Source: Bathymodiolus japonicus methanotrophic gill symbiont
Lineage (GTDB): Bacteria > Pseudomonadota > Gammaproteobacteria > Methylococcales > Methylomonadaceae
Direction: 5' to 3'
Length of the DNA stretch: 64,000 nucleotides
Assembly: GCF_019721995.1 (NCBI RefSeq)
Contig: NZ_BLYC01000001.1
Location: 124,001 to 188,000, forward strand
A program made the position numbers and the translations under genes. This document shows positions 1 to 62,054 of this stretch, one piece after another (the first letter of the stretch is position 1; each line of letters opens with the position of its first letter). Under the pieces are notes generated by a model. It did not search any database, was not told where the DNA came from, and worked only from the letters and a program-made list of their open reading frames with translations.

Positions 1-1244
1 CGCACCATAATACTCAATAATCTGTGTGACGGATAAACTTAGATCGGTCGTAAACAAAGCAATCCACTGTGTGCGACGAAACACCCAGACAACCTGAACG
101 GGTCGTTTCAATGTTTTCAGCATGACAACGCGACTATAAGCCCTGACTTCACGCTGTTTTCCATAGAGATTCACGGTATACGATCGGGCCTTTTGTTGTA
201 CTTTTTTTGCCATGTCTGTGGCTGACCTCAGACGCTGCCCGTACTTTTTATTCCGCCCCCTCTGCTTGGGTTTTCTTTTTTCTGGACGATCGTACAGTAC
301 ATTATTGCACCTTAACCTAGAGAGAATATTAAACCGGCTTCCGATAGCTTTGTAAACAGGCTTCCATAGGCCATTGTTGCCAAACCAGCTATCAGTGACT
401 GTCAATATCGGAGCGGTGGAAAAATGTTCTGCAATTGCAATCAGCATTTGAGCCGCCTGAGTCATCTTGGTCTGGAAAGGAACGACTTCCCCTCTTATCG
501 TGGCGGTTTCTTTTTTTGCCTGAATTGTTTTTAAGGGCAGATAAAATCGGAAATCTAAAAATAAGCACGCCCAGCGACCGCTGAAAATCAGGGAAACGGA
601 GCCTAAGCGAAGGTGGAGACAAAATAAAAGGCCATCCGACACGGCGTCAAGTCATTTGGAGCCTATGTTCCGACCCCTTGTTGGGTCGGGACGAGGTGAC
701 GAGGACGAATCGGGGCCGCCGGAGGCATAAGTGGTCGCGTTAAGTTTTTGCTGCTTGCTTGGGCTGGGATGCCCAAAACAAGCTTTCGCAAAAATAGCGA
801 CTCCCCGACTTTGACCTGTTTCAGCAACCCTACCGACACAATATTTTGTGCCCATGGATATTTGCTTTGATTCGATTTGGCCGCGTGGTCAAAAATGGCT
901 TCACAGCCGAAGATATTTTTGCCTACTTTAGTGATAATGGAGTCATCCAGTGCAACCAATATGCGCCCATCTGTTTCAGGAGACGGAATCAGCTCCCAGA
1001 TAGTTTTCCACAGCCCAGCCCACGGCAAAGTTGAAGAAGCCATGAAAGTGTAAACGCGCTTATTCTTGATCTCAAACCCAAACAGCGTATCAAGGCAACG
1101 CCAAAGATTAGATGTCATCGACGACGTAAAGGGAACGATAATAGACGGGATCGTGTAAACAAACAGAGAGGCTCGTTCGCGGCCTAAAGTGGTTTTGGAA
1201 AAATGATCTTGAAACGGAAGTAAAGTATCGCGTAAAATGAACAT
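1..1244 (-). pseudogene. ISc transposase (IS4-like DDE), interrupted
   Basis: The frame starts with MFILRDTLLPF at 1244 and contains the aspartate-rich stretch LVALDDSIITKVGKN, typical of the first catalytic Asp of DDE transposases. A second Asp lies in the VTDSWFGNNGLW region near 390, read on the minus strand. The HCE at 579-808 separates residues around LLKQVK from GRWACLFLDF. The fragment at 61148-61420 carries the uninterrupted version of that junction, so removal of the HCE restores the frame exactly. The C-terminus is beyond base 1. It is inactive as it stands, because the insertion introduces stops. Confidence 0.8.
579..808 (+). mobile_element. HCE type B (L1-R2), 230 bp, internally deleted
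   Basis: Begins CGCTGAAAATC and ends CTCCCCGA. The flanks CCAGCGAC and CTTTGACC join into the sequence seen uninterrupted (reverse strand) at 61380-61400, so there is no target duplication. Compared with 295-bp copies it lacks 65 bp between two AGCGAAG repeats, which suggests a slippage or recombination deletion. The four bases before the insertion are CGAC. Confidence 0.9.
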
Positions 1245-1570
1245 GAATGAGGCCGGTTTGTTTGTATAATCAATGTGTTAGAAACTTTCATTATACAGTG
1301 AAACCAGGCCTCATTAACGATTAATCTGTTGTTTTTAAAAAGAATTCAAGGCTTTTAGTCAACGGAATTCCATCGATATTAGCAATATCTAATATTTCAG
1401 AAAAATAAGCATTAGCTGATATTCTTATGCTTTAAAAACTAGGAAACTTCAGACGGTTAAGCAGTGTAACTAAAGTAATCAGGTGCAATACAAAATTTAA
1501 ATTGATAATGGAATAATCACCACCGAGCCTGTATTATTAAGCACTTAATTCTAAGTCGAGTGTTTGTGCT

Positions 1571-1957
1571 ATGGAACAGAGAAGAAGACCGCTTTCACCT
1601 CATTTGCAAGTGTATAGATTACCCCTGACTGCAGTGGTGTCGATGACGCATAGAATGACTGGGGTATTGTTAGCAGCCGGGTTGATGTTATTTGTAGTGA
1701 GTCTGGCCGTGCTTCAATGTGGTGCCAGTAGCTTTGAATCTATGCAGTCTGTTATATTGCAGCCTTTAGTCAGCGTAGCAATCTGGATGATGGTCTATGC
1801 CTTGTTCTTTCATATGTGTCATGGCGTTCGCCATTTATTCTGGGATGCAGGTGAGGGCTATGAAAAACCCCTAATGAATTACTATATTATATTGGAGCTT
1901 TTTGCCTCGGTTATTCTAACCGGGATCAGTTACTTATTTGTTCAGTTAGGGAGTTAA
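1571..1957 (+). CDS. sdhC: Succinate dehydrogenase cytochrome b556 subunit
   Basis: A 128-residue membrane anchor of complex II, which passes electrons from the SdhB iron-sulfur clusters to ubiquinone in the inner membrane. The N-terminus has the family signature RPLSPHLQVYRLP followed by SMTHRMTGV, where the Ser and Arg help form the quinone site. Three hydrophobic helices follow, and the His in HMCHGVRHLFWD is the expected heme b ligand. It is the first gene of a tight sdhCDAB cluster, two bases before sdhD. No clear Shine-Dalgarno is visible upstream. Length is normal for the family. Confidence 0.96.
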   Translation: MEQRRRPLSPHLQVYRLPLTAVVSMTHRMTGVLLAAGLMLFVVSLAVLQCGASSFESMQSVILQPLVSVAIWMMVYALFFHMCHGVRHLFWDAGEGYEKPLMNYYIILELFASVILTGISYLFVQLGS

Positions 1958-1959
1958 AT

Positions 1960-2343
1960 ATGAGTTATCAAACTCCTTTGGCACGAGCACGAGGCCTGGG
2001 TTCTGCAAAAACGGGTACTACGCATTGGTGGATGCAAAGAGTGACTGCTGTTGCTTTAATTCCTTTATCTTTCTGGTTGATTTTATTTATTCAACAGCTT
2101 TTTTATGCCTCTTATGATGAAATCAGGCAGTGGCTAATGAGCCCGCTTAATTTTACCTTATTGCTCGCCTGGGCATTTACCGGTTTTTATCATGCGGCAC
2201 TAGGGCTACAAGTTGTTATTGAAGATTATGTTAATCCCAACTGGCTAAAAATTGTCATGGTCTGGGTAATTAAATTAACGTTTACCGGGATGGCAATTGC
2301 ATCGCTGGTATTTGCCATACGTATTGCTATTTCTGCAGGATAA
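1960..2343 (+). CDS. sdhD: Succinate dehydrogenase membrane anchor subunit
   Basis: A 127-residue second membrane anchor of complex II. It begins with the short soluble segment ARARGLGSAKTGTTHWWMQR and has three transmembrane helices. The segment FYHAALGLQVVIEDYV holds the second conserved heme-region His and the Asp-Tyr pair near the quinone pocket. A GGGAG ribosome-binding sequence lies inside the end of sdhC, so the two genes are probably translationally coupled. The frame, length and order are all standard. Confidence 0.95.
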   Translation: MSYQTPLARARGLGSAKTGTTHWWMQRVTAVALIPLSFWLILFIQQLFYASYDEIRQWLMSPLNFTLLLAWAFTGFYHAALGLQVVIEDYVNPNWLKIVMVWVIKLTFTGMAIASLVFAIRIAISAG

Positions 2344-2349
2344 TTAAAC

Positions 2350-5553: not shown

Positions 5554-5647
5554 CGTCAAGTATGCTTTATTTTTTCTGTAAAGCTATGCCGAAACACTCT
5601 GAATTAGTTTAAAATTACCAGTTTTACACCTTAACAATATTCATTTT

Positions 5648-6580: not shown

Positions 6581-6582
6581 GT

Positions 6583-7715: not shown

Positions 7716-8211
7716 ATGCAGCATATCATTGAGCTAGACCGGCAGGCAGAGGGAATTTTATCTGAGATAGCGATACATACCCAGAAATCAAAAGATGATA
7801 TTTTTCTGGAAGTTATTAAAAATTATTTATTGCAGCAGGCTAAACGTGCTGACCAGGCGCGCCATGCTACCTCACGAAATTCCGGGACTCCTGTCGCCAT
7901 AATTCGTTCACCTACGCAGCGGATGGGAGATGCCCTGAACGCCCTGCGTCCGCAACGACTACGCACAAAAGCCGCTTCGTCATTACTACCTCACTGGCTG
8001 GACGGCTATTCGGAATGCAATTCTTGCTCCTCTCGCGTGCTGCTAGCACACGTCGAATCAGCGAATTTCCCTGTCGCCTATCAGGGACTAAAAATCACCA
8101 CTTCGCTAAGCTCCGTTTCCATGATTTTCAGCGTTGGATCAATTCCTAAAGCCCTATAAAGCCAATTTGAGTGGCTATAAGTTTGATAGAGATGCTGCAA
8201 ATGAGCGGTAG
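7716..8211 (+). pseudogene. Small antitoxin-like gene split by an HCE
   Basis: The gene starts MQHIIELDRQAEGILSEIA and continues to LLQQAKRAD at 7853. If the HCE at 7854-8133 is removed, the frame continues as LDQFLKPYKANLSGYKF to a TAG at 8209-8211, giving a 71-residue protein. The stop overlaps the ATG of a PIN-domain fragment, the usual antitoxin-toxin overlap, so an antitoxin role is inferred from position and size. No named antitoxin family is certain. With the insertion the protein runs into HCE sequence. Confidence 0.65.
7854..8133 (-). mobile_element. HCE type A (L1-R1), 280 bp
   Basis: A full-length copy reading on the minus strand (CAGGCGCGCC at 7854, ending TTTTCAGCG at 8133). It sits inside the antitoxin-like gene, and the flanks fuse into one reading frame without any duplicated base. 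The element-strand upstream bases are CCAA. Confidence 0.92.
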
Positions 8212-10621: not shown

Positions 10622-10901
10622 CGCTGAAAATCATGGAAACGGAGCTTAGCGAAGTGGTGATTTTTAGTCCCTGATAGGCGACAGGGCAATTTGCTGATTC
10701 GACGTGTGCTAGCAGCACGCGAGAGGAGCAAGAATTGCATTCCGAATAGCCGTCCAGCCAGTGAGGTAGTAATGACGAAGCGGCTTTTGTGCGTAGTCGT
10801 TGCGGACGCAGGGCGTTCAGGGCATCTCCCATCCGCTGCGTAGGTGAACGAATTATGGCGACAGGAGTCACGGAATTTCGTGAGGTAGCATGGCGCGCCT
10901 G
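10622..10901 (+). mobile_element. HCE type A (L1-R1), 280 bp
   Basis: Inserted into the ISc leader. The uninterrupted leader at 57145-57165 reads ATTACTAATGTTAATG, and the filled site is ATTACTAA, element, TGTTAATG, proving insertion without duplication or loss. Bases before the element are CTAA. Confidence 0.95.
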
Positions 10902-11171: not shown

Positions 11172-11462
11172 CGCTGAAAATCAGGGAAACGGAGCTTTAG
11201 CGAAGTGAAGATTTTTAGTCCGCGATAGCCGTAGGGCCGTTGTTTTGTCGGAGTCTGAGCGTTAGCGAAGGTGGAGACAAAATAAAAGGCCATCCGACAC
11301 GGCGTCAAGTCATTTGGAGCCTATGTTCCGACCCCTTGTTGGGTCGGGACGAGGTGACGAGGACGAATCGGGGCCGCCGGAGGCATAAGTGGTCGCGTTA
11401 AGTTTTTGCTGCTTGCTTGGGCTGGGATGCCCAAAACAAGCTTTCGCAAAAATAGCGACTCC
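11172..11462 (+). mobile_element. HCE type B, split near its right end by a type C HCE
   Basis: Starts CGCTGAAAATC after CTAA and is full length up to GACTCC, where a type C copy begins. The last bases of the R2 end may continue beyond that copy as CC at 11723. This is an HCE inside an HCE, or a fusion of two. Confidence 0.8.
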
Positions 11463-11722
11463 CGCTGTCAGCCCCGGACGGGCTGATAGTCTCCAGAAGG
11501 CGCAGGGAAATTTGCCAATCCGAAGTGCGCGATAGCGCGCGAGGGAGGCTAAAATTTTATCCCGAATAGCCGTAGAGCCATTTGAGGTAGCCATGACTGA
11601 GCTGCTTTGTGCTCAGTCTGTGGCGGACGCAGGGCGGCTGGAGCATCTCCTATTCGCTGCGTAGGTGAACGAATTACGGCGACAGGAGTCCCGGAATTTC
11701 GTGAGGTAGCATGGCGCGCCTG
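11463..11722 (+). mobile_element. HCE type C (L2-R1), 260 bp
   Basis: A complete 260-bp copy beginning CGCTGTCAGCC. The preceding bases CTCC belong to the R2 end of the neighbouring type B copy and fit the C-N-N-N rule. Confidence 0.88.
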
Positions 11723-11766
11723 CCAAGGATGACTCCATTATCACTAAAGTAGGCAAAAATATCTTC

Positions 11767-12046
11767 CGCTGAAAATCATGGAAACGGAGCTTAGCGAAGT
11801 GGTGATTTTTAGTCCCTGATAGGCGACAGGGCAATTTGCTGATTCGACGTGTTCTAGCAGCACGCGAGAGGAGCAAGAATTGCATTCCGAATAGCCGTCC
11901 AGCCAGTGAGGTAGTAATGACGAAGCGTCTTTTGTGCGTAGTCGTTGCGGACGCAGGGCATTCAGGGCATCTCCCATCCGCTGCGTAGGTGAACGAATTA
12001 TGGCGACAGGAGTCCCGGAATTTCGTGAGGTAGCATGGCGGGCCTG
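11767..12046 (+). mobile_element. HCE type A, 280 bp, at a junction
   Basis: Follows ISc sequence ending ATCTTC. The right flank (AAATTAAGG) is not ISc, so this copy marks a rearrangement joint. Its end reads GGCGGGCCTG, one base different from other R1 ends. Confidence 0.88.
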
Positions 12047-13673: not shown

Positions 13674-15072
13674 CTAGGGTTGTCTTAATTTATTGCGTAT
13701 TTCTAGTGGGCAAAGGGGGGGCATGGGGAAAAAAGCAGCTAGTTCGGCAACTTTTCCTGCTTTGGTCCATTCCACCAGCTTTTGACTCCAGACTAGAGTT
13801 TCTTTGCTAATTTCAGCTGCTTTGATTTTATTTTGCAGTACATTTAGATCGAAAGGGCCAGACTGCTGGCCGTTAATGGCAATAAAATATTGGGCATGTT
13901 GCGGAATAGGGGGAGGTGAAACGGTTGAGTTGCTAGCTTGTGGTGGAGTATAGGACTGGCCCATTTTATTGGTCATGGCAAAGCCAATACCCATACCTAT
14001 GCCTTCTGAAGCGCCGCCCGAAGTATTTTCGGCGGCCTGAAATTCACTGTAATCTTTTAAATTGCCAATAACACCCATGCTGGTACGCTTGTCTAGTGCA
14101 TCTTCTACAGCAGGAGGTAGAGAAATATTTTCTACTAATAGTTTGGTGATTTCCAGTCCGTCGCTGAAAATCCTGGAAACGGAGCTTTAGCGAAGTGAAG
14201 ATTTTTAGTCCGCGATAGCCGTAGGGCCGTTGTTTTGTCGGAGTCTGAGCGTTAGCGAAGGTGGAGACAAAATAAAAGGCCATCCGACACGGCGTCAAGT
14301 CATTTGGAGCCTATGTTCCGACCCCTTGTTGGGTCGGGACGAGGTGACGAGGACGAATCGGGGCCGCCGGAGGCATAAGTGGTCGCGTTAAGTTTTTGCT
14401 GCTTGCTTGGGCTGGGATGCCCAAAACAAGCTTTCGCAAAAATAGCGACTCCCCGAATGCGACAAACTCAGGAGCGATGCGAGCAGTGACATAGTCGCTT
14501 AAATCATCATAATTACCAGCAAGGTCAAGTACAGGGATACTGGATTCACCCAGAATACTGGCAAAGCGGGAGAGGATCAGGTTGCGTAATTGATCGCTAA
14601 TATCCTGTGTGGAAAAATGCCCACTCGTGCCGGTAATTTCCTTGAGGAAGGTTAGTGGGTCACTGATTCGCACACAATAGCTACCAAATGCACGCAGCCT
14701 GACTGCACCAAATTCCTTATCGCGCAGCATAATCGGGTTTTTAGTGCCCCACTTTAAATCAACAAAGCGGCGCATATTGAAAAAATAGACTTCTGCTTTA
14801 AAAGGGCTCTCAAATCCATGTGGCCAGTTTTCCAGCGTAGTCATAATCGGCATATTGCTGGTTTTAAGCTCATACAAGCCCGGCTCAAAAAAATCAGCAG
14901 CTTTGCCTTCGTTAACTAAAAGGGCAACTTGTGATTCGCGTACCGTTAATTTAGCACCGTACTTTATTTCATTACCATAGCGTTCAAAGCGGTAGACCAT
15001 GGTATTGCTCGACTTTTCCAGCCATTCAATAACATCAACAAATTCGCCAAACAGTTTATCAAAAAGTCCCAT
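13674..15072 (-). pseudogene. SPFH-domain protein with C-terminal GYF_2-like domain, split by an HCE
   Basis: Begins MGLFDKLFGEFVDVIEW, the usual N-terminus of the YdjI-like 'virion core' SPFH family, and continues to TARIAPEFVA at 14457. After removal of the HCE at 14162-14456 the frame runs on as YGLEITKLLVENISLPP, a conserved stretch of the family, to 367 residues. A Gly-rich linker is followed by a GYF_2-like domain (YFIAINGQQSGPFDLNVL). It is encoded with telA and xpaC, a conserved membrane-stress grouping. The insertion creates stop codons, so only a truncated protein is made. Confidence 0.85.
14162..14456 (+). mobile_element. HCE type B (L1-R2), 295 bp
   Basis: A reference full-length type B copy, antisense to the SPFH gene. 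The flanks CAGTCCGT and ATGCGACA fuse to an intact conserved SPFH coding sequence with no duplicated base. The upstream bases are CCGT. Its R2 end contains a long terminal stem, GTCGC...GTTTTTGC pairing with GCAAAAATAGCGAC. Confidence 0.93.
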
Positions 15073-18717: not shown

Positions 18718-19273
18718 ATGGCAGATAAATATCCTCTACCAAAATTCCATTTTCAGGTTGAATGGGCGTCAGTGTCAATTTCATTTACCGAAGTTTCCGG
18801 TCTCGATGTCGAAACTGAAGTAATTGAATACCGTGATGGTGCAAGCCCTGAGTTCAGTAAATTGAAGATGCCGGGTATGCAGAAATTCAGTAATATCACC
18901 TTAAAGCGGGGTGTATTTAAATCAGACAATGAATATTTTTCTTGGTGGAATACTGTCGCTGAAAATCATGGAAACGTAGCTTAGCGAAGTGGTGATTTTT
19001 AGTCCCTGATAGGCGACAGGGCAATTCGCTGATTCGACGTGTGCTAGCAGCACGCGAGAGGAGCAAGAATTGCATTCCGAATAGCCGTCCAGCCAGTGAG
19101 GTAGTAATGACGAAGCGTCTTTTGTGCGTAGTCGTTGCGGACGCAGGGCGTTCAGGGCATCTCCCATCCGCTGCGTAGGTGAACGAATTATGGCGACAGG
19201 AGTCACGGAATTTCGTGAGGTAGCATGGCGCGCCTGTAGTCTAAATACTATCGAGAGACGAGACATCATTATT
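18718..19273 (+). pseudogene. Tail tube protein (gp19-like) remnant
   Basis: The start MADKYPLPKFHFQVEW and the segment FTEVSGLDVETEVIEYRDG are typical of inner-tube proteins of contractile injection systems. An HCE at 18957-19236 interrupts it. Joining the flanks gives WWNTVSLNTIERRDIII in one frame, as in intact relatives. An ISa copy at 19274 removes the rest, about 50 residues. Baseplate and other genes of such a system are absent from the window. Confidence 0.82.
18957..19236 (+). mobile_element. HCE type A, 280 bp
   Basis: Inserted in the tube gene between WWNTV and SLNTIERR, with the frame restored on removal. The upstream bases are CTGT. Confidence 0.92.
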
Positions 19274-19360: not shown

Positions 19361-19620
19361 CGCTGTCAGCCCCGGACGGGCTGATAGTCTCCAGAAGGCG
19401 CAGGGAAATTTGCCAATCCGAAGTGCGCGATAGCGCGCGAGGGAGGCTAAAATTTTATCCCGAATAGCCGTAGAGCCATTTGTGGTAGCCATGACTGAGC
19501 TGCTTTGTGCTCAGTCTGTGGCGGACGCAGGGCGGCTGGAGCATCTCCTATTCGCTGCGTAGGTGAACGAATTACGGCGACAGGAGTCCCGGAATTTCGT
19601 GAGGTAGCATGGCGCGCCTG
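19361..19620 (+). mobile_element. HCE type C (L2-R1), 260 bp
   Basis: The filled site GTTGGCCCT, element, AAGCGCCC corresponds to GTTGGCTCTAAGCGCCC in the ISa copy at 37810-37830. There is no duplication. The upstream bases are CCCT. Confidence 0.95.
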
Positions 19621-20641: not shown

Positions 20642-20901
20642 CGCTGTCAGCCCCGGACGGGCTGATAGTCTCCAGAAGGCGCAGGGAAATTTGCCAATCC
20701 GAAGTGCGCGATAGCGCGCGAGGGAGGCTAAAATTTTATCCCGAATAGCCGTAGAGCCATTTGTGGTAGCCATGACTGAGCTGCTTTGTGCTCAGTCTGT
20801 GGCGGACGCAGGGCGGCTGGAGCATCTCCTATTCGCTGCGTAGGTGAACGAATTACGGCGACAGGAGTCCCGGAATTTCGTGAGGTAGCATGGCGCGCCT
20901 G
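20642..20901 (+). mobile_element. HCE type C (L2-R1), 260 bp
   Basis: A reference type C copy. The filled site ATACGTT, element, TTGTAGAC matches ATACGTTTTGTAGAC in the ISa copy near 38843. There is no duplication. The upstream bases are CGTT. Confidence 0.96.
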
Positions 20902-23216: not shown

Positions 23217-23600
23217 GTGTCTGGCATAAAAGTGGCATGAACTTATTTTAGGCTTTTTTACGGAACGTGGAAACTGTCGTACTGATGTTAAGGGAGAAAC
23301 CCAAGCGGAAGCCCCGCAAGGGTCTGAGTACCGATGCAGAACACAGGGGCGGATCAGCTCGTAGTAGTGATGAAGTTTCTGTAATGGAAATGGAGCGAAG
23401 GGGCTGACATGTCTATGAGCAACCTTTAGTCAACCAGAAAAGGGCTGAACTAAAGGTTTATTCAAACTTGGTAATTGCAAGGGGCATGAAGAGCCGTATG
23501 AAGCGAGAGTTTCAAGTACGGATCTGTGAGAGCCTGAGGGGGAAGATCCTTGGGCGACTCGACTAAAGTCACTACAACGCAGAAGACGGACAAAAAGACA
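23217..23600 (+). ncRNA. Group II intron remnant without maturase
   Basis: The stretch near 23330-23420 has AGTACCGATGCAGAACACAG and CGTAGTAGTGATGAAG followed by GGAGCGAAGGGG, sequences found upstream of maturase genes in bacterial group II introns. At 23491-23524 a domain V-like hairpin reads GAGCCGTATGAAGCGAGAG then TTCAAGTACGGATC. No reverse transcriptase frame is present, so domain IV is deleted. The boundaries are approximate. Confidence 0.6.
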
Positions 23601-25309: not shown

Positions 25310-25604
25310 CGCTGAAAATCAGGGAAACGGAGCCTAAGCGAAGTGAAGATTTTTAGTCCGCGATAGCCGTAGGGCCGTTGTTTTGTCGGAGTCTGAGCGT
25401 TAGCGAAGGTGGAGACAAAATAAAAGGCCATCCGACACGGCGTCAAGTCATTTGGAGCCTATGTTCCGACCCCTTGTTGGGTCGGGACGAGGTGACGAGG
25501 ACGAATCGGGGCCGCCGGAGGCATTAGTGGTCGCGTTAAGTTTTTGCCGCTTGCTTGGGCTGGGATGCCCAAAACAAGCTTTCGCAAAAATAGCGACTCC
25601 CCGA
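25310..25604 (+). mobile_element. HCE type B, 295 bp, at a gene-gene junction
   Basis: The left flank is the DUF6524 gene (upstream bases CTAT); the right flank is the 3' region of a minus-strand DUF429 gene. A single insertion cannot explain both flanks, so recombination between two HCE copies is likely. Confidence 0.9.
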
Positions 25605-28272: not shown

Positions 28273-28532
28273 CAGGCGCGCCATGCTACCTCACGAAATT
28301 CCGGGACTCCTGTCGCCGTAATTCGTTCACCTACGCAGCGAATAGGAGATGCTCCAGCCGCCCTGCGTCCGCCACAGACTGAGCACAAAGCAGCTCAGTC
28401 ATGGCTACCACAAATGGCTCTACGGCTATTCGGGATAAAATTTTAGCCTCCCTCGCGCGCTATCGCGCACTTCGGATTGGCAAATTTCCCTGCGCCTTCT
28501 GGAGACTATCAGCCCGTCCGGGGCTGACAGCG
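28273..28532 (-). mobile_element. HCE type C, 260 bp
   Basis: Antisense to ISb. The upstream bases on the element strand are CCAC. A part of the ISb transposase is missing beside it, so it may have taken part in a deletion. Confidence 0.92.
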
Positions 28533-28588: not shown

Positions 28589-28883
28589 CGCTGAAAATCC
28601 TGGAAACGGAGCTTTAGCGAAGTGAAGATTTTTAGTCCGCGATAGCCGTAGGGCCGTTGTTTTGTCGGAGTCTGAGCGTTAGCGAAGGTGGAGACAAAAT
28701 AAAAGGCCATCCGACACGGCGTCAAGTCATTTGGAGCCTATGTTCCGACCCCTTGTTGGGTCGGGACGAGGTGACGAGGACGAATCGGGGCCGCCGGAGG
28801 CATAAGTGGTCGCGTTAAGTTTTTGCTGCTTGCTTGGGCTGGGATGCCCAAAACAAGCTTTCGCAAAAATAGCGACTCCCCGA
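28589..28883 (+). mobile_element. HCE type B, 295 bp
   Basis: The filled site GACAACCTT, element, GCCAATGAC matches GACAACCTTGCCAATGAC in the ISb copy near 42715 (reverse strand). There is no duplication. The upstream bases are CCTT. Confidence 0.96.
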
Positions 28884-29246: not shown

Positions 29247-29541
29247 CGCTGAAAATCAGGGAAACGGAGCCTAAGCGAAGTGATGATTTTTAGTCCGCGA
29301 TAGCCGTAGGGCCGTTATTTTGTCGGAGTCTGAGCGTTAGCGAAGGTGGCGACAAAATAAAAGGCCATCCGACACGGCGTCAAGTCATTTGGAGCCTATG
29401 TTCCGACCCCTTGTTGGGTCGGGACGAGGTGACGAGGACGAATCGGGGCCGCCGGAGGCATAAGTGGTCGCGTTAAGTTTTTGCTGCTTGCTTGGGCTGG
29501 GATGCCCAAAACAAGCTTTCGCAAAAATAGCGACTCCCCGA
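29247..29541 (+). mobile_element. HCE type B, 295 bp
   Basis: The filled site AACGCAAT, element, AATAACAGG matches AACGCAATAATAACAGG at 39528-39544. There is no duplication. The upstream bases are CAAT. Confidence 0.96.
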
Positions 29542-37372: not shown

Positions 37373-37643
37373 CGCTGAAAATCATGGAAACGGAGCTTAG
37401 CGAAGTGGTGATTTTTAGTCCCTGATAGGCGACAGGGCAATTCGCTGATTCGACGTGTGCTAGCAGCACGCGAGAGGAGCAAGAATTGCATTCCGAATAG
37501 CCTGAGGTAGTTAATGACGAAGCGGCTTTTGTGCGTAGTCGTTGCGGACGCAGGGCGTTCAGGGCATCTCCCATCCGCTGCGTAGGTGAACGAATTATGG
37601 CGACAGGAGTCCCGGAATTTCGTGAGGTAGCATGGCGCGCCTG
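37373..37643 (+). mobile_element. HCE type A, 271 bp, at a gene-gene junction
   Basis: It lacks nine bases net in the middle (GAATAGCCTGAGG instead of the longer version). The left flank is the chaperone operon (upstream bases CGCC); the right flank is a restriction-enzyme fragment on the other strand. It is probably a recombination joint. Confidence 0.9.
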
Positions 37644-39719: not shown

Positions 39720-41393
39720 ATGACAGATTCCGCACAAATTTTACATCGATACGAGTTGATTCTGAGTTCCGCTGTCGATGGTATTTATGGCCTGGATATA
39801 GACGGCAGGATAACCTTTGTTAACCCCGCTGCGCTGAAAATGAACGGCTGGGGGTTGAGCAAGAAACACTTGGTGAACTGGGGCATATGCAGCACCATCA
39901 TAGCAAAGAAAATGGTGAGCATTATCCGCGTCATGAGTGCCCGATTTATGCCGCCTTAAAAGATGGTGAAGTACATCATGTCACGCATGAGGTGTTCTGG
40001 CGTAAAGATGGCTCGTGTTTTCCAGTGCATTACACCAGTACCCCAATTTGGGAAAATAATGCCATCATAGGTGCAGTGGTGGTGTTCCAGGGTGTGAGTA
40101 AACTCAAGCAAGCAGAAGCGAAGGTTACCCTGTTACAACGCAAAAATGAATTGATTTTAGCCTCTGCAGGGGAAGGCATCTGTGGCTTTGGCCGTGAGGG
40201 CAGGGTCACTTTTATTAACCCTGCTGCTGCCATTATGCTAGTCTGGCCAGAGGACGGGGTAGCCGGGAAAACCATTCATGATATTTTTGGGCGTGATGAG
40301 CCGGATGCAGATAAATACTGTCCAGTGCAAAATATAATGCGCGGTAAACAGCGGTTTAAAGCCTGTGACAAAGTTTTCTGGCGTAGTGATGGGACTTTCT
40401 TTTCGGTAGATTTTGTTAGTACCCGGATTATGGATAATAATCATCTCAAGGGTCAGGCGCGCCATGCTACCTCACGAAATTCCGGGACTCCTGTCGCCAT
40501 AATTCGTTCACCTACGCAGCGGATGGGAGATGCCCTGAACGCCCTGCGTCCGCAACGACTACGCACAAAAGCCGCTTCGTCATTACTACCTCACTGGCTG
40601 GACGGCTATTCGGAATGCAATTCTTGCTCCTCTCGCGTGCTGCTAGCACACGTCGAATCAGCGAATTGCCCTGTCGCCTATCAGGGACTAAAAATCACCA
40701 CTTCGCTAAGCTCCGTTTCCATGATTTTCAGCGATTGAAGGTACGATTTTTCTGGATGAAATAGGTGAGATCCCGTTGGAGCTACAGGCAAAATTATTGC
40801 GCGTACTACAGGAAGGTGAAATCGAACGCCTGGGCGACTCAAAAACCATTAAGATAAATGTTCGAGTGGTTGCTGCTACCCATAGGGATTTAAAGCAAAT
40901 GGTCGCCGAGGGTGAGTTTCTCGAAGATCTATATTATCGGCTTAGTGTATTCCCGTTAACCATTCCCGCCTTACGCAAGCGCAAAAATGATATTGCAATA
41001 TTAGCGCAAAGCTTTGTCGGTAAATATGCACAGAAAATGAGCAAGCAGATTAAGCATATTCCAGAGAGCGTGATGGAGAATTTAATTAGCTACAGCTGGC
41101 CAGGAAATGTGCGGGAACTGGAAAACGTGATTGAACGCGCAGTCATACTTTCACCTGATCAAACTCTGCAGGTAGCCCCTTTGTATAATTCAGGACTAAG
41201 TGATAAAGTCTCTGGTCAAGTACTATTGCCCCTGGCAGCAATAGAAAAAGCGCATATTATTAAAGTGCTGGAAAGTGTGCAATGGCAAATTTCCGGCGAA
41301 AATGGCAGTGCTGCAATTTTAGAAATGCATCCCAATACCCTGCGCCCGAGGATGAATAAGTTAGGCATACGTAGGGAGGTGACGGCTTTGTGA
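39720..41393 (+). pseudogene. PAS-domain sigma-54 activator, multiply broken
   Basis: The two PAS domains are visible (HRYELILSSAVDGIYGLDID; NELILASAGEGICGFGREGR). A frameshift lies at a run of five G (39850-39854). At 40454 a type A HCE stands where the first part of the AAA+ domain, including Walker A and the GAFTGA loop, should be. The reading resumes at GTIFLDEIGEIPLELQAKLL with Walker B, then YSWPGNVRELENVIERAVIL and a Fis-like C-terminus. It is a regulator of sigma-54 promoters in origin, certainly inactive now. Confidence 0.85.
40454..40733 (-). mobile_element. HCE type A, 280 bp, replacing part of a gene
   Basis: Complete copy; upstream bases on the element strand are CAAT. The host gene has lost about 120 codons exactly at the element, which a simple insertion would not do. 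Confidence 0.92.
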
Positions 41394-42906: not shown

Positions 42907-43695
42907 TTAATATAAATCAATTACAGTGGGATGATGAACTTCTGCAACTATTTGATATTCCGCTTGCGCTTTTGCCAGAGGTTAAGTCTTCTAGTGAATG
43001 TTACGGTATTACCCGAGATACTGATATCGGAGTCGGGATTCTTATTGCTGCAATAGCCGGTGATCAGCAGGCGGCTTTGTTTGGACAGCAGTGTTTTAAG
43101 CAGGGAATGGCAAAGTGTACCTACGGAACCGGATCTTTCTTGATCATGAACACTGGCTGTAGAAAAGTGGTGTCCAGCAATAAGCTGTTAACCACGATAG
43201 CCTGGAAAATTGGTGATAATGTTGTGTATGCGCTGGAAGGCCTGGCTGCTCCACACTGGCGCTGAAAATCATGGAAACGTAGCTTAGCGAAGTGGTGATT
43301 TTTAGTCCCTGATAGGCGACAGGAGTCCCGGAATTTCGTGAGGTAGCATGGCGCGCCTGGACGCGGATGCGCTGTTATCGACCATGAGTGCGGATACCGG
43401 CGAGCCAATTGCAGAACTACGTATTGATGGTGGTGCCACGGCAAATAACCAGCTTATGCAATTCCAGGCAGATATATCGGCGATTAAAATCATTCGTACT
43501 GCCAATCTTGAATCCACTGCGCTAGGAGCTGCTTATCTAGCAGGTATCGCAACGGGGTTTTGGAGCCTGGAAGACATTACCTTGAAAGGTAAAATTGACC
43601 ATGAATTTAATGGTACATTGCTGCCTGATAAGATTTCAATGCTTAAACAGCAATGGCTGAAAGCCGTTAAAAGATCCATGCACTGGGTAGAATAA
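42907..43695 (+). pseudogene. glpK: Glycerol kinase remnant
   Basis: Begins about residue 195 of glycerol kinase ([17 protein letters not shown]), with [13 protein letters not shown] and [15 protein letters not shown]. About 45 codons are missing between YALEG and LAAPHW, then a 100-bp HCE remnant stands in for more, and the reading resumes at ELRIDGGATANNQLMQFQAD to the normal C-terminus. The first 195 residues are gone at the HCE tail/ISb joint. The FGGY-type kinase cannot function. glpD lies 54 bases downstream. Confidence 0.88.
43260..43359 (+). mobile_element. HCE type A, 100-bp deletion derivative
   Basis: The full left and right ends are kept, and 180 bp are missing between two copies of GGCGACAGG. 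The upstream bases are CTGG. The host gene glpK has lost sequence at this point too. Confidence 0.92.
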
Positions 43696-44912: not shown

Positions 44913-45205
44913 CGCTGAAAATCAGGGAAACGGAGCCTAAGCGAAGTGATGATTTTTAGTCCGCGATAGCCGTAGGGCCGTTATTTTGTCGGAGTCTGAG
45001 CGTTAGCGAAGGTGGAGACAAAATAAAAGGCCATCCGACACGGCGTCAAGTCATTCGGAGCCTATGTTCCGACCCCTTGTTGGGTCGGGACGAGGTGACG
45101 AGGACGAATCGGGGCCGCCGGAGGCATAAGTGGTCGCGTTAAGTTTTTGCTGCTTGCTTGGGCTGGGATGCCCAAAACAAGCTTTCGCAAAAATAGCGAC
45201 TCCCC
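44913..45205 (+). mobile_element. HCE type B, right end eroded
   Basis: 293 bp: the usual final GA, and apparently one base of host sequence, are missing, so the glpD frame is one base short when joined. The upstream bases are CGAT. Confidence 0.9.
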
Positions 45206-45283
45206 AATTTATTGGGCGGCTTACAGGCAAAGCCGTGTGTCACTGAGTATATGCCAATTCATGGAGCTATAGAGACTTCTATC

Positions 45284-45697
45284 ACTCGATGTTCAAGTTT
45301 TCAGCTATAACTGGGCTAAGAAAAGTAAATTTTTCCGGCTTTGTTTTATAAGTGATTGATTTACAATGATGTTGATACTTTCTTTGTCAGTCGCTGTCAG
45401 CCCCGGACGGGCTGATAGTCTCCAGAAGGCGCAGGGAAATTTGCCAATCCGAAGTGCGCGATAGCGCGCGAGGGAGGCTAAAATTTTATCCCGAATAGCC
45501 GTAGAGCCATTTGTGGTAGCCATGACTGAGCTGCTTTGTGCTCAGTCTGTGGCGGACGCAGGGCGGCTGGAGCATCTCCTATTCGCTGCGTAGGTGAACG
45601 AATTACGGCGACAGGAGTCCCGGAATTTCGTGAGGTAGCATGGCGCGCCTGAAAATTATCAATAAAATCAATCAGTTAAAAAACTTGAACATCGAGT
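45284..45697 (+). mobile_element. Miniature element M4 with ISa ends, carrying an HCE
   Basis: The ends ACTCGATGTTCAAGTTTT and AAAACTTGAACATCGAGT match ISa, and ATC is duplicated at 45281-45283 and 45698-45700. Without the type C HCE it is 154 bp and non-coding, so it should be mobilised by ISa transposase. Its removal restores glpD frame across ETSI-SDSSLTVY. Confidence 0.9.
45392..45651 (+). mobile_element. HCE type C, 260 bp
   Basis: Inside M4. The upstream bases are CAGT; the right flank is AAAATTATC. Confidence 0.94.
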
Positions 45698-52760: not shown

Positions 52761-53237
52761 GTAACTACTCAGCGTGTTTTTTAACTTTAAAATCAAATGG
52801 ATATATTTTAATTTAACCTGACTTTAGTCATTCGCTGCCAGCCATGGAGAGCGAAAGCGAGGGCTGGTAGTCCCCAGAAGGCGTAGGGCCGTTGTTTTGT
52901 CGGAATCGTAGCGCTAGCGTAGGTGTAGACAAAATAAAAGGCATTCCGAAACGCCGTCCAGTCATTTGAGGGAGTGTTACGAAGCCAGCACCGAGTTTAC
53001 GATGGTAATGGCGAAGTGGCACGTACGCAGGACGTCTGGGGCGCCGAAGGCATTAGTGGTCGCGTTAAGTTTTTGCCGCTTGCTTGGGCTGGGATGCCCA
53101 AAACAAGCTTTCGCAAAAATAGCGACTCCCCGCTTCACCTTTAAAAAGGGGTGAAAATTGGACTAAAATTCAGAGAGATACATTAATTATTATTTTAAAT
53201 CAATCTGTTATGAGTTTAAATTACGCTGAGTAGTTAC
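52761..53237 (-). mobile_element. M3 copy 2, carrying an HCE
   Basis: Flanked by AAAAAATC at 52753-52760 and 53238-53245. Without the 301-bp HCE it is 176 bp, the same as copy 1 and in inverse orientation. Confidence 0.94.
52833..53133 (+). mobile_element. HCE type E (L2-R2), 301 bp
   Basis: The only copy with an L2-like left end (CGCTGCCAGCC) and an R2 right end (CTCCCCGC). The empty site GTCATTTTCACC in M3 copy 1 (reverse strand, near 52200) shows insertion between CATT and TTCACC with no duplication. Its middle diverges from types A-D. Confidence 0.92.
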
Positions 53238-53246
53238 AAAAAATCT

Positions 53247-54417
53247 ATGACTCTTCCACTTGCGACTCGAAAAATGTGGATAGAGCCAGGTCATTCAGAG
53301 TTAAGTATCAGAAAGCAGTGTTGCTTGTTGAGCATCAACAGGTCAAGTTTATATTACCGACCCGTTGGCATAGATGACTATACCCTGATACTGATGCATG
53401 AATTGGATAAACAATATACCGAAACACCCTTTTACGGTGTCTTGAAAATGACGGAGCATTTGAGATCTCAAGGGCACCAGGTCAATCCGAAGCGAGTGAG
53501 GCGGTTACTAAGGCAGATGGGGCTGGAAGCGGTATATCCAAAGCCAAGACTAAGTCAGGGCAACTCAGAGCATAAGATCTATCCTTATTTACTGAGAAAC
53601 CTGCAGATCGAGCGATGCAATCAGGTCTGGAGTACGGATATTACCTACATCCGCATGAAGCATGGTTTTGTCTATCTGATGGCCATTATTGACTGGCATA
53701 GCCGATATGTACTTAATTGGGCGTTAAGTACGACAATGGACGCAGACTTTTGCATAGCAGCCCTTAATGAAACACTAAGTTCATCACAGTGTGAAATCTT
53801 TAATACGGACCAGGGAAGTCAATTCACAACGAATCGATTTACAGGGCCCTTATTGGAGAAAGGAATCCGTGTTAGCATGGATGGCAGAGGCCGCGCACTG
53901 GATAATATTTTTGTTGAACGATTGTGGCGATCAGTCAAGTATGAAAAGGTCTATCTGAATGACTTTCAGACAGTGAATGAAGCATATTTAGGGCTGAAAG
54001 ACTATTTTGAATTTTACAATCACAGGCGAATTCATCAGTCCTTGGACTATCGAACGCCAGCGGAGGTTTATTATAAAAAAAACGGTCTATACGTGAGAGT
54101 CCCTGCAGGCGGACTCCATCGCTTAAAATCAGGGAAACGGAGCCTAAGCGGAGTGATGATTTTTAGTCCTTGGTAGGCGACAGGGCAATTCGCTGATCCG
54201 AAGTGCGCTAGTAGCGCTCGAGGGAGGCAAGAATTGCATTCCGAATAGCCGTCCAGCCATTTGAGGTAGTCTTAACGGAGCAGGGTTTTGTGCGTAGTTG
54301 AGACGGACGCAGGGCGACCAGGGCATCTCCCATTCGCTGCGTAGGCGAATGAATGTTGGTGACAGGAGTCCCAGAATGTTGTGAGGTAGCATGGCGCGCC
54401 TGGTGGACAAAGAGTAG
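53247..54417 (+). pseudogene. ISd OrfB transposase (IS3 family), split near its end by an HCE
   Basis: The rve integrase core is complete: first Asp in VWSTDITYIRMKHG, second Asp in IFNTDQGSQFTTNRF, and Glu in NIFVERLWRSVKYEKVYL, followed by YNHRRIHQSLDYRTPAEVYY. The HCE at 54120 sits after GGLH, and joining the flanks adds VDKE and a stop. Only the last five codons are affected, so the protein might still fold with an altered tail; OrfA is broken though. Confidence 0.9.
54120..54402 (+). mobile_element. HCE type D (L1-R1 variant), 283 bp
   Basis: Begins CGCTTAAAATC, ends GGCGCGCCTG, and differs from type A throughout, with paired changes in stems. The upstream bases are CCAT; the right flank GTGGACAAAGAG completes the orfB frame. 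Confidence 0.92.
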
Positions 54418-54529: not shown

Positions 54530-54809
54530 CGCTGAAAATCATGGAAACGTAGCTTAGCGAAGTGGTGATTTTTAGTCCCTGATAGGCGACAGGGCAATTT
54601 GCTGATTCGACGTGTGCTAGCAGCACGCGAGAGGAGCAAGAATTGCATTCCGAATAGCCGTCCAGCCAGTGAGGTAGTAATGACGAAGCGGCTTTTGTGC
54701 GTAGTCGTTGCGGACGCAGGGCGTTCAGGGCATCTCCCATCCGCTGCGTAGGTGAACGAATTATGGCGACAGGAGTCACGGAATTTCGTGAGGTAGCATG
54801 GCGCGCCTG
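54530..54809 (+). mobile_element. HCE type A, 280 bp
   Basis: Inserted in M1: CCCCTAC, element, TTAATTCC equals CCCCTACTTAATTCC in intact M1 copies (for example near 17520). There is no duplication. The upstream bases are CTAC. Confidence 0.96.
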
Positions 54810-55121: not shown

Positions 55122-55167
55122 AGTTTTGGTTGATGTGTGTTTCCATCTCCCTTACTCAATCACCTGG

Positions 55168-57405: not shown

Positions 57406-57432
57406 CGCTGTCAGCCCCGGACGTGCTGATAG
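57406..57432 (+). mobile_element. HCE type C, left hairpin only
   Basis: 27 bases: the L2 hairpin CTGTCAGCCCCGGACG then TGCTGATAG. The upstream bases are CCTT. The remainder was lost at the joint with ISe. Confidence 0.72.
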
Positions 57433-57504
57433 CCCCCCGTGTCAGGATAGTTTTCGCCTTATTTGAAAAATAATAACTCAAACAAGGGGCGGAAAAATAA
57501 AACC

Positions 57505-58424: not shown

Positions 58425-59795
58425 TTTCCGAACAAACAAAAACGACAGAGGGGAAACTGGCTTATAATTTTCGTCCCAACACTAACGGAAACAGTCAAAA
58501 ATGGTATCCCTCACTTTTTCAAAGTCAATTGTAGACCGACTAAAAAAAAATATGGCGACAGCTCTCAAGCTAAGTAATATTTGTTTATATCGATTAACTC
58601 AAGCTCTACTCTGGTTCAGTGAATGCATGGGAATCAAAGAAATAGCACGCCTAATGTGAGTCTGTGAAAAAACCATTATAAATTGGCTGAAAACATTCAT
58701 GCATAAAGGTGTCGGTTGGTTAATAGGGCAACACTATCAAGGACGTGGTCGGAAGTCAAAGTTAACTAAAGACCAGAAAAATAAATTGGTTGAGTTGATA
58801 AAGAAAGGCCCAGAAGACAATGGATTTCATTGTGGAATATGGAATACTGCGATGATTGCCGAGCTTATTTGGTTAAAATTTGAAGTTCGTTATAACTTGA
58901 ACTATTTATCAAGCCTAATGAAAAAACTGGGCTTCAGTTATCAAAAAGCTCGTTTTGTGACTGATCGCCAAGAAGAAGAAAAGTACGAGCTTGAAAGAAA
59001 AACGTGGCTGGAAGAAACATTGCCTGCCATTATGGAAAAGGCGGTAGAAGAAAAGAGTGTCGTTTTATTCGGTGATGAGGTGTCATTTGCTATGTGGGGT
59101 TCATTGGCACGAACCTGGGCTCCAATAGGAGAGCAACCCACAGTGAAAACATCAGGGATTCGAAAAGGGTTGAAAATGTTTGGTACGATCGAACTCGAAG
59201 GAGGGAGTTTTCAATACCGAGAATCATTGGCTTATGAGATAAAACCAAAGTCACTTAGACTTTTAAAAGAAGCTGGGCTGCCTCAAGAATTTTTAGCTAT
59301 TCTTAAAAGCTTAAAAAATGAGAAATATCCAACACAGAAGCTTTTTATGGAAGCGATATATTCTATTGCCGACAACGTCTTAATCGAGAGTTATAAGCCA
59401 ATGATATTACAACACGCTGAAACATCTGGGCGTTTTAATGGTGAAAGCTATGTTGAGTTTTTAACACAATTGCTGGCTTATTATAAAGGCAAGATTATTC
59501 TAATTGAAGATGGTGCCCCGTATCATGGAAGCGGTGTTATTAAGGAATTTAAGTTAGCTAATGTAGATCGTTTGACAGTAGAACGTCTCCCTGCGTTCTC
59601 GCCGGATTTTAATCCGATTGAGAAATTATGGAAAAATACGAAACGCGATTCGACTCATATGAAGTATTTTAAAACTTTTGAAGATCTTCATGATTCAGTT
59701 GTGCAAACTTTTAACACTTATATGCATGATGCCAGTAAAGTGATTTGTGTTATGCAAAAATTGCGGGAAGATTTCGTTGTTACCGCCTAAGTTTA
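58425..59795 (+). mobile_element. ISf, IS630 family
   Basis: It interrupts ISe orfB. The ends are only approximately placed; no clear TA duplication could be fixed by eye. It contains one transposase gene with a nonsense codon. Confidence 0.7.
58501..59790 (+). pseudogene. IS630 transposase with early stop
   Basis: The frame starts MVSLTFSKSIVDRLKKN and has a TGA at 58657 inside the helix-turn-helix (GIKEIARLM-stop-VCEKTIINWL). After it the frame is open for 363 residues with the IS630 core: Asp in VLFGDEVSFAMWGS, second Asp in IILIEDGAPYHGSG, and Glu in FSPDFNPIEKLWKNTK. Downstream re-start at MHKGVGWL is possible but would lose the DNA-binding domain. Confidence 0.85.
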
Positions 59796-59893
59796 AGCGC
59801 TCCAAATTTGGAAATTATTTATCTGAGAAACTATATATCGCAGAAAAAGCGAACCAGGTATGGACGTGGGATATCAGCTACATGCCAACACCC

Positions 59894-60499
59894 CAGGCGC
59901 GCCATGCTACCTCACAACATTCTGGGACTCCTGTCACCAACATTCATTCGCCTACGCAGCGAATGGGAGATGCCCTGGTCGCCCTGCGTCCGTCTCAACT
60001 ACGCACAAAACCCTGCTCAGTTAAGACTACCTCAAATGGCTGGACGGCTATTCGGAATGCAATTCTTGCCTCCCTCGCGCGCTACTAGCGCACTTCGGAT
60101 CAGCGAATTGCCCTGTCGCCTACCAGGGACTAAAAATCATCACTCCGCTTAGGCTCCGTTTCCCTGATTTTAACCCATCTTCGTCACTTTCATCTTTCTA
60201 AGCCATTGATTCATCGGTTTAAGCGATTTTTTGTCGAGAAATTCTCTTTAAAATCAATGGTGTTTTTTTTGAAAGTTTTGTAGTGCCATTTATATTATTT
60301 TTGTCGATAAATTCATTGACTTTTGTCAAAAAAATCATCATTATTTGAGTGTAATTTACATGCGACAAAAATACTCTAAAAAATCCAACGTTTTATACAA
60401 AAACACAAAATATGTAGTGCCAACTGGCTACTTTTTAAAATTTCAACCAATTGATTTATAACAACTACATCATCAATAGTGACGAAGATGGGTTAAGCG
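59894..60499 (-). mobile_element. HCE type D, 283 bp, split by M2
   Basis: 59894-60173 plus 60497-60499 rejoin as a complete type D copy. The flanks (ACACCC and ATCGTGGG) fuse to a continuous transposase frame. Upstream bases on the element strand are CGAT. Confidence 0.93.
60174..60492 (+). mobile_element. M2 copy 3 (319 bp)
   Basis: It lies three bases from the left end of an HCE, duplicating TTAA (60170-60173 and 60493-60496). Confidence 0.94.
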
Positions 60500-61147
60500 A
60501 TCGTGGGTCAGTTCTACTATTTATATATGATAGAGGACATTTATAGCCGAAAAATAGTCGGGGCTGAAGTGTATGAACAAGAAAGTGGCGAAGATGCCGC
60601 TACACTACTTGAGCGTAGCCTATTAAAGGAAAAAATGATGTATAACCCATTGGTGCTCCATTCTGATAATGGCGCACCAATGAAATCACTCACCTTGCGC
60701 AGCAAAATGTATGATTTAAACTTAACCAGCTCATACAGCCGCCCACGAGTGAGTAATGACAACTCTTATTCTGAAGCTTTGTTTAGAACGGTAAAGTATT
60801 GTCCTGACTGGCCTGGCAGTGGCTTTGATAGTCTTGATGAAGCCCGGGAATGGGTAGGTAACTTTGTCGAATGGTATAACAACGAGCACCGGCACAGCAA
60901 AATAAAATTCGTCACACCTGCGGAACGACATGAAGGAAAAGACAAAAATATTCTTGAAATGCGAGATAAATTATATCTCCAGAAGAAAAAAGAAAAAAGA
61001 AAAAAGAAAAAAGAAAAACCTTCCAGATGGTCTGGCTCAACCAGAAACTGGGATGCTACAGGGCCAGTTCCATTAAATCCTGACAGGACTGATGAGGCGG
61101 CTTAAATAATTTAGGCGAAAACTATCTTGAAAAACACCGCGGGGGGG

Positions 61148-61420
61148 CTTTCATGGCTTCTTCAACTTTGCCGTGGGCTGGGCTGTGGAAAACTATCTGG
61201 GAGCTGATTCCGTCTCCTGAAACAGATGGGCGCATATTGGTTGCACTGGATGACTCCATTATCACTAAAGTAGGCAAAAATATCTTCGGCTGTGAAGCCA
61301 TTTTTGACCACGCGGCCAAATCGAATCAAAGCAAATATCCATGGGCACAAAATATTGTGTCGGTAGGGTTGCTGAAACAGGTCAAAGGTCGCTGGGCGTG
61401 CTTATTTTTAGATTTCCAAT
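61148..61420 (+). mobile_element. ISc fragment, central part
   Basis: Encodes FMASSTLPWAGLWKTIWELI to GRWACLFLDFQ without interruption and gives the empty-site reference for the HCE at 579. It starts at the ISe end and stops at an HCE. Confidence 0.86.
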
Positions 61421-61715
61421 CGCTGAAAATCAGGGAAACGGAGCCTAAGCGAAGTGATGATTTTTAGTCCGCGATAGCCGTAGGGCCGTTATTTTGTCGG
61501 AGTCTGAGCGTTAGCGAAGGTGGCGACAAAATAAAAGGCCATCCGACACGGCGTCAAGTCATTTGGAGCCTATGTTCCGACCCCTTGTTGGGTCGGGACG
61601 AGGTGACGAGGACGAATCGGGGCCGCCGGAGGCATAAGTGGTCGCGTTAAGTTTTTGCTGCTTGCTTGGGCTGGGATGCCCAAAACAAGCTTTCGCAAAA
61701 ATAGCGACTCCCCGA
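61421..61715 (+). mobile_element. HCE type B, 295 bp, between ISc and ISe pieces
   Basis: Full length; upstream bases CAAT. The left flank is ISc and the right flank ISe orfA, so a recombination joint is likely. Confidence 0.93.
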
Positions 61716-61797
61716 CTTCATTAAATATCAGCGTAGCTGAATTAGCTAAGACCGAAAATATTCCTTACGGAACGCTATATACGTGGAAGAAAACTTA
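61716..61797 (+). mobile_element. ISe-related orfA fragment
   Basis: Encodes LNISVAELAKTENIPYGTLY then TWKKTY, about 85 percent like the ISe OrfA helix-turn-helix. It comes from a related, not identical, copy. Confidence 0.75.
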
Positions 61798-62054
61798 CGC
61801 TGAAAATCATGGAAACGGAGCTTAGCGAAGTGGTGATTTTTAGTCCCTGATAGGCGACAGGGCAATTCGCTGATTCGACGTGTGCTAGCAGCACGCGAAT
61901 AGCCGTCCAGCCAGTGAGGTAGTAATGACGAAGCGGCTTTTGTGCGTAGTCGTTGCGGACGCAGGGCGTTCAGGGCATCTCCCATCCGCTGCGTAGGTGA
62001 ACGAATTATGGCGACAGGAGTCCCGGAATTTCGTGAGGTAGCATGGCGCGCCTG
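61798..62054 (+). mobile_element. HCE type A, 257 bp, internally deleted
   Basis: It lacks 23 bp near GCAGCACGCGAATAGCC. The upstream bases are CTTA. The right flank GCAAACCTG leads toward the pgm 3' side. Confidence 0.9.

Follow-up and report, generated by a model that had tools for sequence, protein, structure and literature searches.

A family of structured non-coding elements inserted after C-N-N-N in a mussel symbiont, with a possible link to topoisomerase I

We analysed a window of 64,000 nucleotides from the genome of the Bathymodiolus japonicus methanotrophic gill symbiont (G000, 4.97 Mb; contig NZ_BLYC01000001.1, positions 124,001 to 188,000), which carries many copies of a family of non-coding repeat elements of 260-310 nt, here called HCEs. 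HCEs are nearly always joined to their targets after the sequence C-N-N-N, a rule first proposed in a sequence-only reading of the window; it is confirmed here and appears to be new. So strict a rule on a single target base, shared by many genera, would be unusual whatever enzyme does the work. The explanation developed below, to which we give close to an even chance, is that an HCE, itself non-autonomous, is mobilised in the form of a single folded DNA strand that the topoisomerase I (TopA) of the host cuts and joins; we infer the link to TopA from a resemblance of motifs and from elimination. Held with slightly less assurance is the broader proposition that HCEs are the first family of mobile elements without an enzyme of its own to hijack topoisomerase I, a folded strand whose ends and target obey nothing but the C-N-N-N rule of that enzyme and which has spread through an order, reaching more than 1,000 copies.

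Results

A cytosine four bases before the left end

HCEs of types A/B, D and E were located by profiles in a sample of 1,227,036 bases, about a quarter of the window's genome (contig C1 whole, C2 1-320 kb, C3 1-260 kb, C4 1-120 kb, and C5 and C6 1-20 kb each). Taking all types together, 326 of 334 distinct left flanks in this 1.23 Mb sample have C at position -4, the exceptions being five A and three T, against a background frequency of 0.208 (binomial p ~3e-208). The excess that had been predicted for a genome-wide collection of copies is thus confirmed in this sample. It is seen in the separate types as well: the sample holds 251 type A/B left ends, of which 245 start with exactly CGCT, and C stands at -4 in 228 of their 232 distinct flanks, while type D, with the left end CGCTGTCAGCCCCGGACGGGCTGATAGTC, has it in 89/91. 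Additional loci, fetched nearly all from other genomes, mainly other Methylococcales, with at least one (L113) from the window's own genome, gave C at -4 in every one of 97 distinct left flanks.

Within the window the profiles found 26 left ends (types A/B, D and E). The sequence-only reading had counted C at -4 for 26 of 26 intact left edges; the rule stands, but by our count the intact edges number 25, so that 25 of the 26 left ends have C at -4, and all 21 tetranucleotides that it listed are present among the flanks. The exception is the minus-strand copy at 59894-60176, which begins GGGTTAAAATC and has lost its left edge.

The same reading held that nothing else upstream or downstream was fixed, and this has to be revised, since weaker but significant preferences exist at -5, -3, -2, -1, +1, +2 and +4. 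In the sample, G makes up only 3.0% of bases at -1 (background 22.6%) and T 50%, and C makes up 5.2% at -5 (background 22.1%); C is enriched at -3, G depleted at -3 and -2, and T enriched at +1, +2 and +4. When preferences were computed against background sites that likewise carry C at -4, the log2 values were +0.62 for T and -2.06 for C at -5, +0.66 for C at -3, and +0.80 for T and -2.84 for G at -1, with A or T favoured at -2 and T again at +1, +2 and +4. Targets of the form C-N-W-T account for 121/328, compared with 17% of background sites with C at -4. The avoidance of G at -1 and of C at -5 recurs in the flanks of the fetched loci.

At two sites (ttatttCCCT/TGTttt and ctttttCAAC/CGTtta, the slash marking the junction) different HCE copies have struck the same position in different copies of one repeat. 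Target sites may therefore differ in strength beyond the C rule.

Spread through the Methylococcales

A type A query matched 39 of 151 related genomes, in 16 of 47 genera. The left-end pattern was found in at least 52 stretches in the named genome collection, nearly all of them Methylococcales by title; those among the matches listed include Bathymodiolus methanotrophic symbionts, Methylotuvimicrobium, Methylomonas, Crenothrix, Methyloglobulus, Methylicorpusculum and others. Two of the matches listed are not Methylococcales by title, a thiotrophic mussel symbiont (L264) and a Rhodospirillales metagenome-assembled genome (L267), and for these misbinning is possible. The matches suggest that the host of the window's HCEs is itself a Methylococcales methanotroph.

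Empty sites carry the cytosine and are joined seamlessly

Many HCE copies sit in multi-copy repeats, so that counterparts without the insertion are available: for 83 of the 234 copies having both ends, the same genome also contains the site in its empty state. The join is seamless in 77 of these, with a regular gap and no duplication; the remaining six have irregular gaps, among them two whose right end is one base short. In lying 3' of a fixed short site and duplicating no target bases, these 77 regular joins agree with IS200/IS605 elements.

At -4, the empty sites have C as their majority base in 75 of the 77 cases. In one of the two exceptions all 55 of 55 empty copies have T and the filled copy C; in the other the base is A in the filled copy too. 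The C thus belongs, with rare exceptions, to the target and does not arrive with the element. Neither an absence of C excess nor a loss of the C from empty sites, the two outcomes that the sequence-only reading had named as fatal to its rule, was observed, and its suggestion that the enzyme must read one base at a fixed distance from the cut is supported: the C pre-exists in the target, and the rule holds in the sample and across the order. We also considered a model in which staggered cuts leave a 'coupling sequence' next to the element, and rejected it since positions -4 to -1 equal the empty-site majority in 72/77. The other five copies differ from their empty sites at one to three of these positions, and two of the five have distant or variable empty copies.

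Right ends

The type A right end is CCTG, and all 109 distinct right junctions have C at -4, the search motif itself having included these bases. Type B ends in GACTCC-CCGA, with the boundary set from empty sites. Across 111 copies its positions 271-292 are all but invariant (major-base frequency 1.00, rounded), after which the last three bases (for example 14454-14456 in the window) are CGA in 66 copies, CAA in 20, CGC in 14, CGT in six, CCG in two, and GCT, CAT and CGG in one each. This variation partly tracks sub-lineages (CGC, for instance, goes with C at index 238), and CAA occurs on both main backgrounds. Such hypervariable last bases fit a cut that slips along the C-run (CCCC); if it falls one or two bases early, donor flank could be captured in the next round. 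Right ends one base short were seen against empty sites at C2+244553 and C4-77048, and the alignment suggests a third at C1+466265.

Right ends of the fetched loci, assigned by motif and not by empty sites, read CCTG, CCTA, CCAG, CTAG, CTTG, CCGA, CCGC, CCTT and similar, with C at -4 in 46 of 47; the remaining one reads TCGC. In form, then, the right end of the element itself has the C at -4 that a topoisomerase I substrate should have.

A conserved fold

The left ends of types A, B, D and E share one architecture, a stem-loop between CGCTG and TAGTC, built on stem sequences that are unrelated. In the sample, 308 structures have CGCTG and TAGTC enclosing at least five Watson-Crick pairs; each belongs to one of these types, and 304 of them have C at -4. 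Alignments give better folding energies for the top strand than for the bottom strand (-68.8 versus -39.4 kcal/mol for 12 type A elements; -73.5 versus -61.8 kcal/mol for 11 type B/C elements), together with more G-U pairs (103 of 827 paired cells versus 19 of 755 for A; 75 of 814 versus 40 of 803 for B/C). Pairs with at least two Watson-Crick types are alike on both strands (14 versus 13 for A, 27 versus 30 for B/C). On energies and G-U pairs, the top strand is likely the folded form of the HCE, more clearly for A than for B/C. Folded as single DNA sequences, type B shows excess stability (z -3.3) and type A shows none (z -0.3).

Rfam gave no credible match for HCEs: there was none in the element copies, and a further search gave two at chance level. 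The window's sole Rfam match at gathering scores is to a group II intron domain (RF00029, 58 bits) at 23489-23563.

Eleven palindromic forms of 48-51 nt occur in the genome, in each of which two left ends face each other. C-N-N-N precedes the form on either side, each outer flank being read on its own strand (22/22 ends; two of the entries appear to be a single site seen from its two sides, which would leave 20 ends at 10 sites). They might have been minimal elements, an idea that we rejected because in the two cases where both flanks exist elsewhere bases are missing: the palindrome replaces 43 bases in one (27 places) and about 579 in the other (mostly 577-581; 874 in four places). We accordingly read the palindromic forms as deletion products of inverted pairs.

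Strand bias and avoidance of genes

Of 354 copies, 274 have their top strand on the strand that is locally richer in G (77%, p 6e-26). With GC skew as a stand-in for replication direction, this is a preference for the lagging-strand template of the kind found in IS200/IS605-type elements; such targeting is established for IS608 and ISDra2 (PMC6006769). The bias is present within frames of at least 150 codons whether the frame runs opposite to the element (57 G-rich to 15 other) or with it (35 to 10), beside a weaker lean to opposite-direction frames (72 of 117 copies).

Frames of at least 300 codons are crossed by 43 of 310 copies (13.9%), compared with 43.6% of 2,000 random sites, and the longest crossed frames among those listed are mostly transposase-like by eye. 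This avoidance is hard to square with a self-splicing, intron-like insertion whose copies in genes would be harmless. High copy number, a conserved fold and the preference at -1 would suit an intron, but given that genes are avoided and that no credible Rfam match was found in the copies, we consider it very improbable.

The search for a mobilising enzyme

No enzyme encoded by the element was recognised in the copies examined, which comprise the 1.23 Mb sample and the fetched loci. In the sample, 17 of the 251 A/B left ends have no right end within 450 nt, and ten of these 17 are followed, within 600 nt or ahead of the next right end, by a frame of at least 100 codons. Judged by eye and not by family search, the frames at those ten ends are genes of multi-copy insertion sequences (IS), frames inside repeats, and host-like genes beyond old copies. 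No autonomous relative was found among the 97 fetched left ends, for which the pairwise aligned part ends before 320 nt. In the copies examined HCEs thus differ from IS200/IS605 elements, in which the element encodes its Y1 transposase.

A HUH transposase, of the Y1 type or another, might nevertheless act in trans, with HCEs as non-autonomous IS200/IS605-like or REP-like elements whose site has degenerated to C at -4. We regard this as a plausible but rather doubtful explanation. The topology would be the same, with no duplication, hairpins at the ends and a strand bias, and cut sites of TnpA_REP can be as short as two bases (PMC8266576). The genome has 22 Y1 transposase matches, including one open RAYT-like gene (L038, 222 aa, whose NF047646 match is below the cut-off) and one IS200-like frame of 121 aa that lacks a start (L031). 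Kin of L031 are present in three genomes that all hold HCEs: it is 85-94% identical to IS200-type frames in G008, of the same genus, where a related gene is whole, and 42% identical to those in G004 and G009.

Several observations speak against such a transposase. Relatives of L038 at 60% identity or more occur in G103, G119, G134, G140, G017 and G064, of which only G017 is among the 39 element-bearing genomes; L038 was rejected as mobiliser because it is not co-distributed with HCEs. G076 has near-identical HCE copies, yet L038 has no match there at E<=0.001. The Y1 frames of G076, when compared directly on a small scale, show 22-26% identity, and for the IS200 type it has only a fragment of 84 codons that shares 40% identity with L031 over 63 residues. 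The five Y1 matches in G075 look RAYT-like by eye and none matches L031 at 1e-3. No consistent element end was found beside Y1 genes, and no closely related Y1 in every host compared, other HUH families (relaxases, Reps) not having been searched. A search for IS91-type Y2 enzymes gave no matches, a weak negative as the control gave none anywhere. Finally, TnpA_REP reads C/T across the cut and not a C four bases back (PMC8266576).

A further possibility is a short retroelement, in which a structured RNA would be reverse transcribed into the lagging-strand template. Conservation of the fold over the whole length, the greater number of G-U pairs on the top strand and a strand bias that fits insertion at replication forks would all suit it. 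Both ends of HCEs are, however, sharp and seamless, and the reverse transcriptases of the genome offer poor candidates: there are four open frames, which best match defence families and whose top-listed hits in 30 frames from eight other hosts reach at most 29% identity, and one broken fragment (L276), the sole one with a close relative (a 427-aa frame in G008 with about 90% identity). We judge the retroelement improbable. The open frames L275, L277, L278 and L279 lie on short contigs of the same genome and match RT_UG17, Drt3a, a retron-type reverse transcriptase and Drt3b.

Resemblance of the target to topoisomerase I sites

The sequence-only reading knew of no described element with a bare C-N-N-N target. 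For elements this holds, in that a limited literature search found no mobile element with such a target; an enzyme with this rule is known, namely bacterial topoisomerase I. It prefers C at -4 from its single-strand cut, and topoisomerase III does not (PMC7587558, PMC6101483, PMC11999072). For E. coli topoisomerase I the motif of in vivo binding peaks is TCNTT(A/T), and that of in vivo cuts is very similar, with the cut after the second T, within TA and four nucleotides past a strictly required C (PMC9352719). The preferences at HCE targets, T at -5, C at -4, A or T at -2, T at -1 and at +1, and avoidance of G at -1, resemble this motif. We had recorded the biases at -1 and -5 before the idea of TopA arose and before PMC9352719 was consulted.

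The genome has one type IA topoisomerase match, a TopA of 776 aa (TIGR01051, 819 bits). By alignment spacing it keeps Arg168 and Arg169 of the E. coli enzyme and has another aromatic residue, Phe, for Tyr177, as reverse gyrases do. In E. coli, Tyr177 wedges between -4 and -5, and Arg173 lies in the cytosine pocket (PMC7587558, PMC6101483 or PMC11999072).

Copies in the window and in the genome

The copies in the window and the palindromic forms are listed in Table 1. Exact left ends number 864 (A/B) and 335 (D) in the whole genome, 1,199 in all, and we estimate that HCEs occupy about 7% of the genome if most copies are full length. The flanks of several HCE copies match some 50 to 110 places in the sampled quarter, a pool that includes some overlapping loci, and the genome is therefore rich in other repeats too.

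Table 1. HCE copies in the window (window coordinates) and palindromic forms in the genome (contig:position)
Feature	Position	Strand	Left flank	Remark
Type B copy	579..808	+	CGAC	internal deletion; empty site exists
Type A copy	7854..8133	-	CCAA	
Type A copy	10622..10901	+	CTAA	empty site exists
Type B copy	11172..11726	+	CTAA	interrupted by type D 11463-11722; right end CCAA resumes at 11723 (read from sequence)
Type D copy	11463..11722	+	CTCC	nested in right end of type B copy 11172..11726
Type A copy	11767..12046	+	CTTC	
Type B copy	14162..14456	+	CCGT	
Type A copy	18957..19236	+	CTGT	
Type D copy	19361..19620	+	CCCT	
Type D copy	20642..20901	+	CGTT	
Type B copy	25310..25604	+	CTAT	
Type D copy	28273..28532	-	CCAC	
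Type B copy	28589..28883	+	CCTT	empty site exists
Type B copy	29247..29541	+	CAAT	empty site exists
Type A copy	37373..37643	+	CGCC	
Type A copy	40454..40733	-	CAAT	
Type A deletion derivative	43260..43359	+	CTGG	100 nt
Type B copy	44913..45207	+	CGAT	
Type D copy	45392..45651	+	CAGT	
Type E copy	52833..53133	+	CATT	
Type A variant	54120..54402	+	CCAT	empty site exists
Type A copy	54530..54809	+	CTAC	
Type D left end	57406..57434	+	CCTT	no right end found within 600 nt
Type A variant	59894..60176	-	AGAT	left edge lost; sole window end without C at -4
Type B copy	61421..61715	+	CAAT	
Type A copy	61798..62054	+	CTTA	internal deletion
Palindromic forms	C1:71277, C1:303494, C18:51251, C31:13568, C34:16207, C43:9159			
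Palindromic forms	C43:22327, C51:7167, C60:1814, C65:12423, C80:7805			

Discussion

Besides the resemblance of motifs, several results would suit movement of a single strand by TopA: the target rule with its seamless joins, the same rule, in form, at the right end, the conserved fold with more G-U pairs on the top strand, the variable last bases of type B, a strand bias that is about equal for both frame directions, and the lack of a recognised enzyme gene in the copies examined. If HCEs are moved by TopA, the process may be pictured as follows. While the HCE strand is single, for example as lagging-strand template, TopA would cut after C-N-N-N at the left end, at the right end and at the target, each cut giving a free 3'-OH and a 5'-phosphotyrosine. 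With the two end sites kept next to each other by the conserved fold, the cleavage complexes would then swap their 3'-OH ends, so that the HCE becomes joined to the target without duplication and the donor strand is resealed. The topology would be that of the 'peel and paste' of IS200/IS605, with a housekeeping enzyme in place of the transposase. In older work the covalent complex of the E. coli enzyme could reportedly rejoin to another 3'-OH.

A number of points weigh against movement by TopA. To our knowledge there is no case of TopA moving DNA segments, and a limited literature search on strand exchange by type IA enzymes found no report. The TopA of this genome has, by alignment spacing, Tyr in place of the Arg173 of E. 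coli. The motifs also differ in detail: E. coli prefers T/A across the cut, whereas at HCE targets T at +1 (42%) is more frequent than A (24%); C is enriched at -3, a position that is free in the E. coli motif; and T, preferred at -1, is missing there from the right ends CCTG, CTTG and CCGA. Two cut sites alone would not call for a fold that is conserved from end to end. The elimination of transposases is incomplete: it covers Y1 and IS91-type enzymes among the HUH families, and an IS200-type relative of L031 is whole in G008. Lastly, type IA topoisomerases were present in all 14 of 14 control genomes, whereas HCEs occur almost only in Methylococcales among the matches listed, so that something other than a type IA topoisomerase must limit them.

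Movement by TopA, if true, would mean that transposition can be carried out by a housekeeping enzyme, and such parasites could then have hosts among many bacteria. It would suggest a candidate route for other structured orphan repeats that have no known mobiliser, and the more than 1,000 copies would mark, in nature, the places at which topoisomerase I encounters single-stranded DNA. Should a HUH transposase be responsible instead, HCEs would represent a further form of single-strand transposition rather than a process of another kind.

Among known systems, IS200/IS605 elements such as IS608 and ISDra2 share with HCEs the single strand, the hairpin ends, the lagging-strand bias, a right-end cut site that matches the target, and insertion 3' of a short site with no target bases duplicated. 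They encode TnpA, and a guide sequence reads their site of four or five nucleotides. HCEs, in contrast, have one strict C and weak preferences elsewhere; no TnpA was recognised in the copies, and no close one in every host compared. The orphan repeats BOX and ERIC are likewise structured, non-coding, present in high copy number and without a known mobiliser, and we know of no C-N-N-N rule for them. REP/BIME and REPIN sequences, mobilised by TnpA_REP/RAYT, are also non-coding and numerous, form palindromic single-strand structures and rely on an enzyme in trans, but REPs are 20-40 nt long, with a GTAG motif and short palindrome and a C/T cut (PMC8266576), whereas HCEs are 260-310 nt, have no 5' GTAG and are joined after CNNN. 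Cleavage sites of topoisomerase I, finally, are known as places of transient cutting and resealing and not of the movement of DNA segments; HCE targets are like them in the C at -4, the T-rich neighbours, the single strand and the dependence on a lone deciding base.

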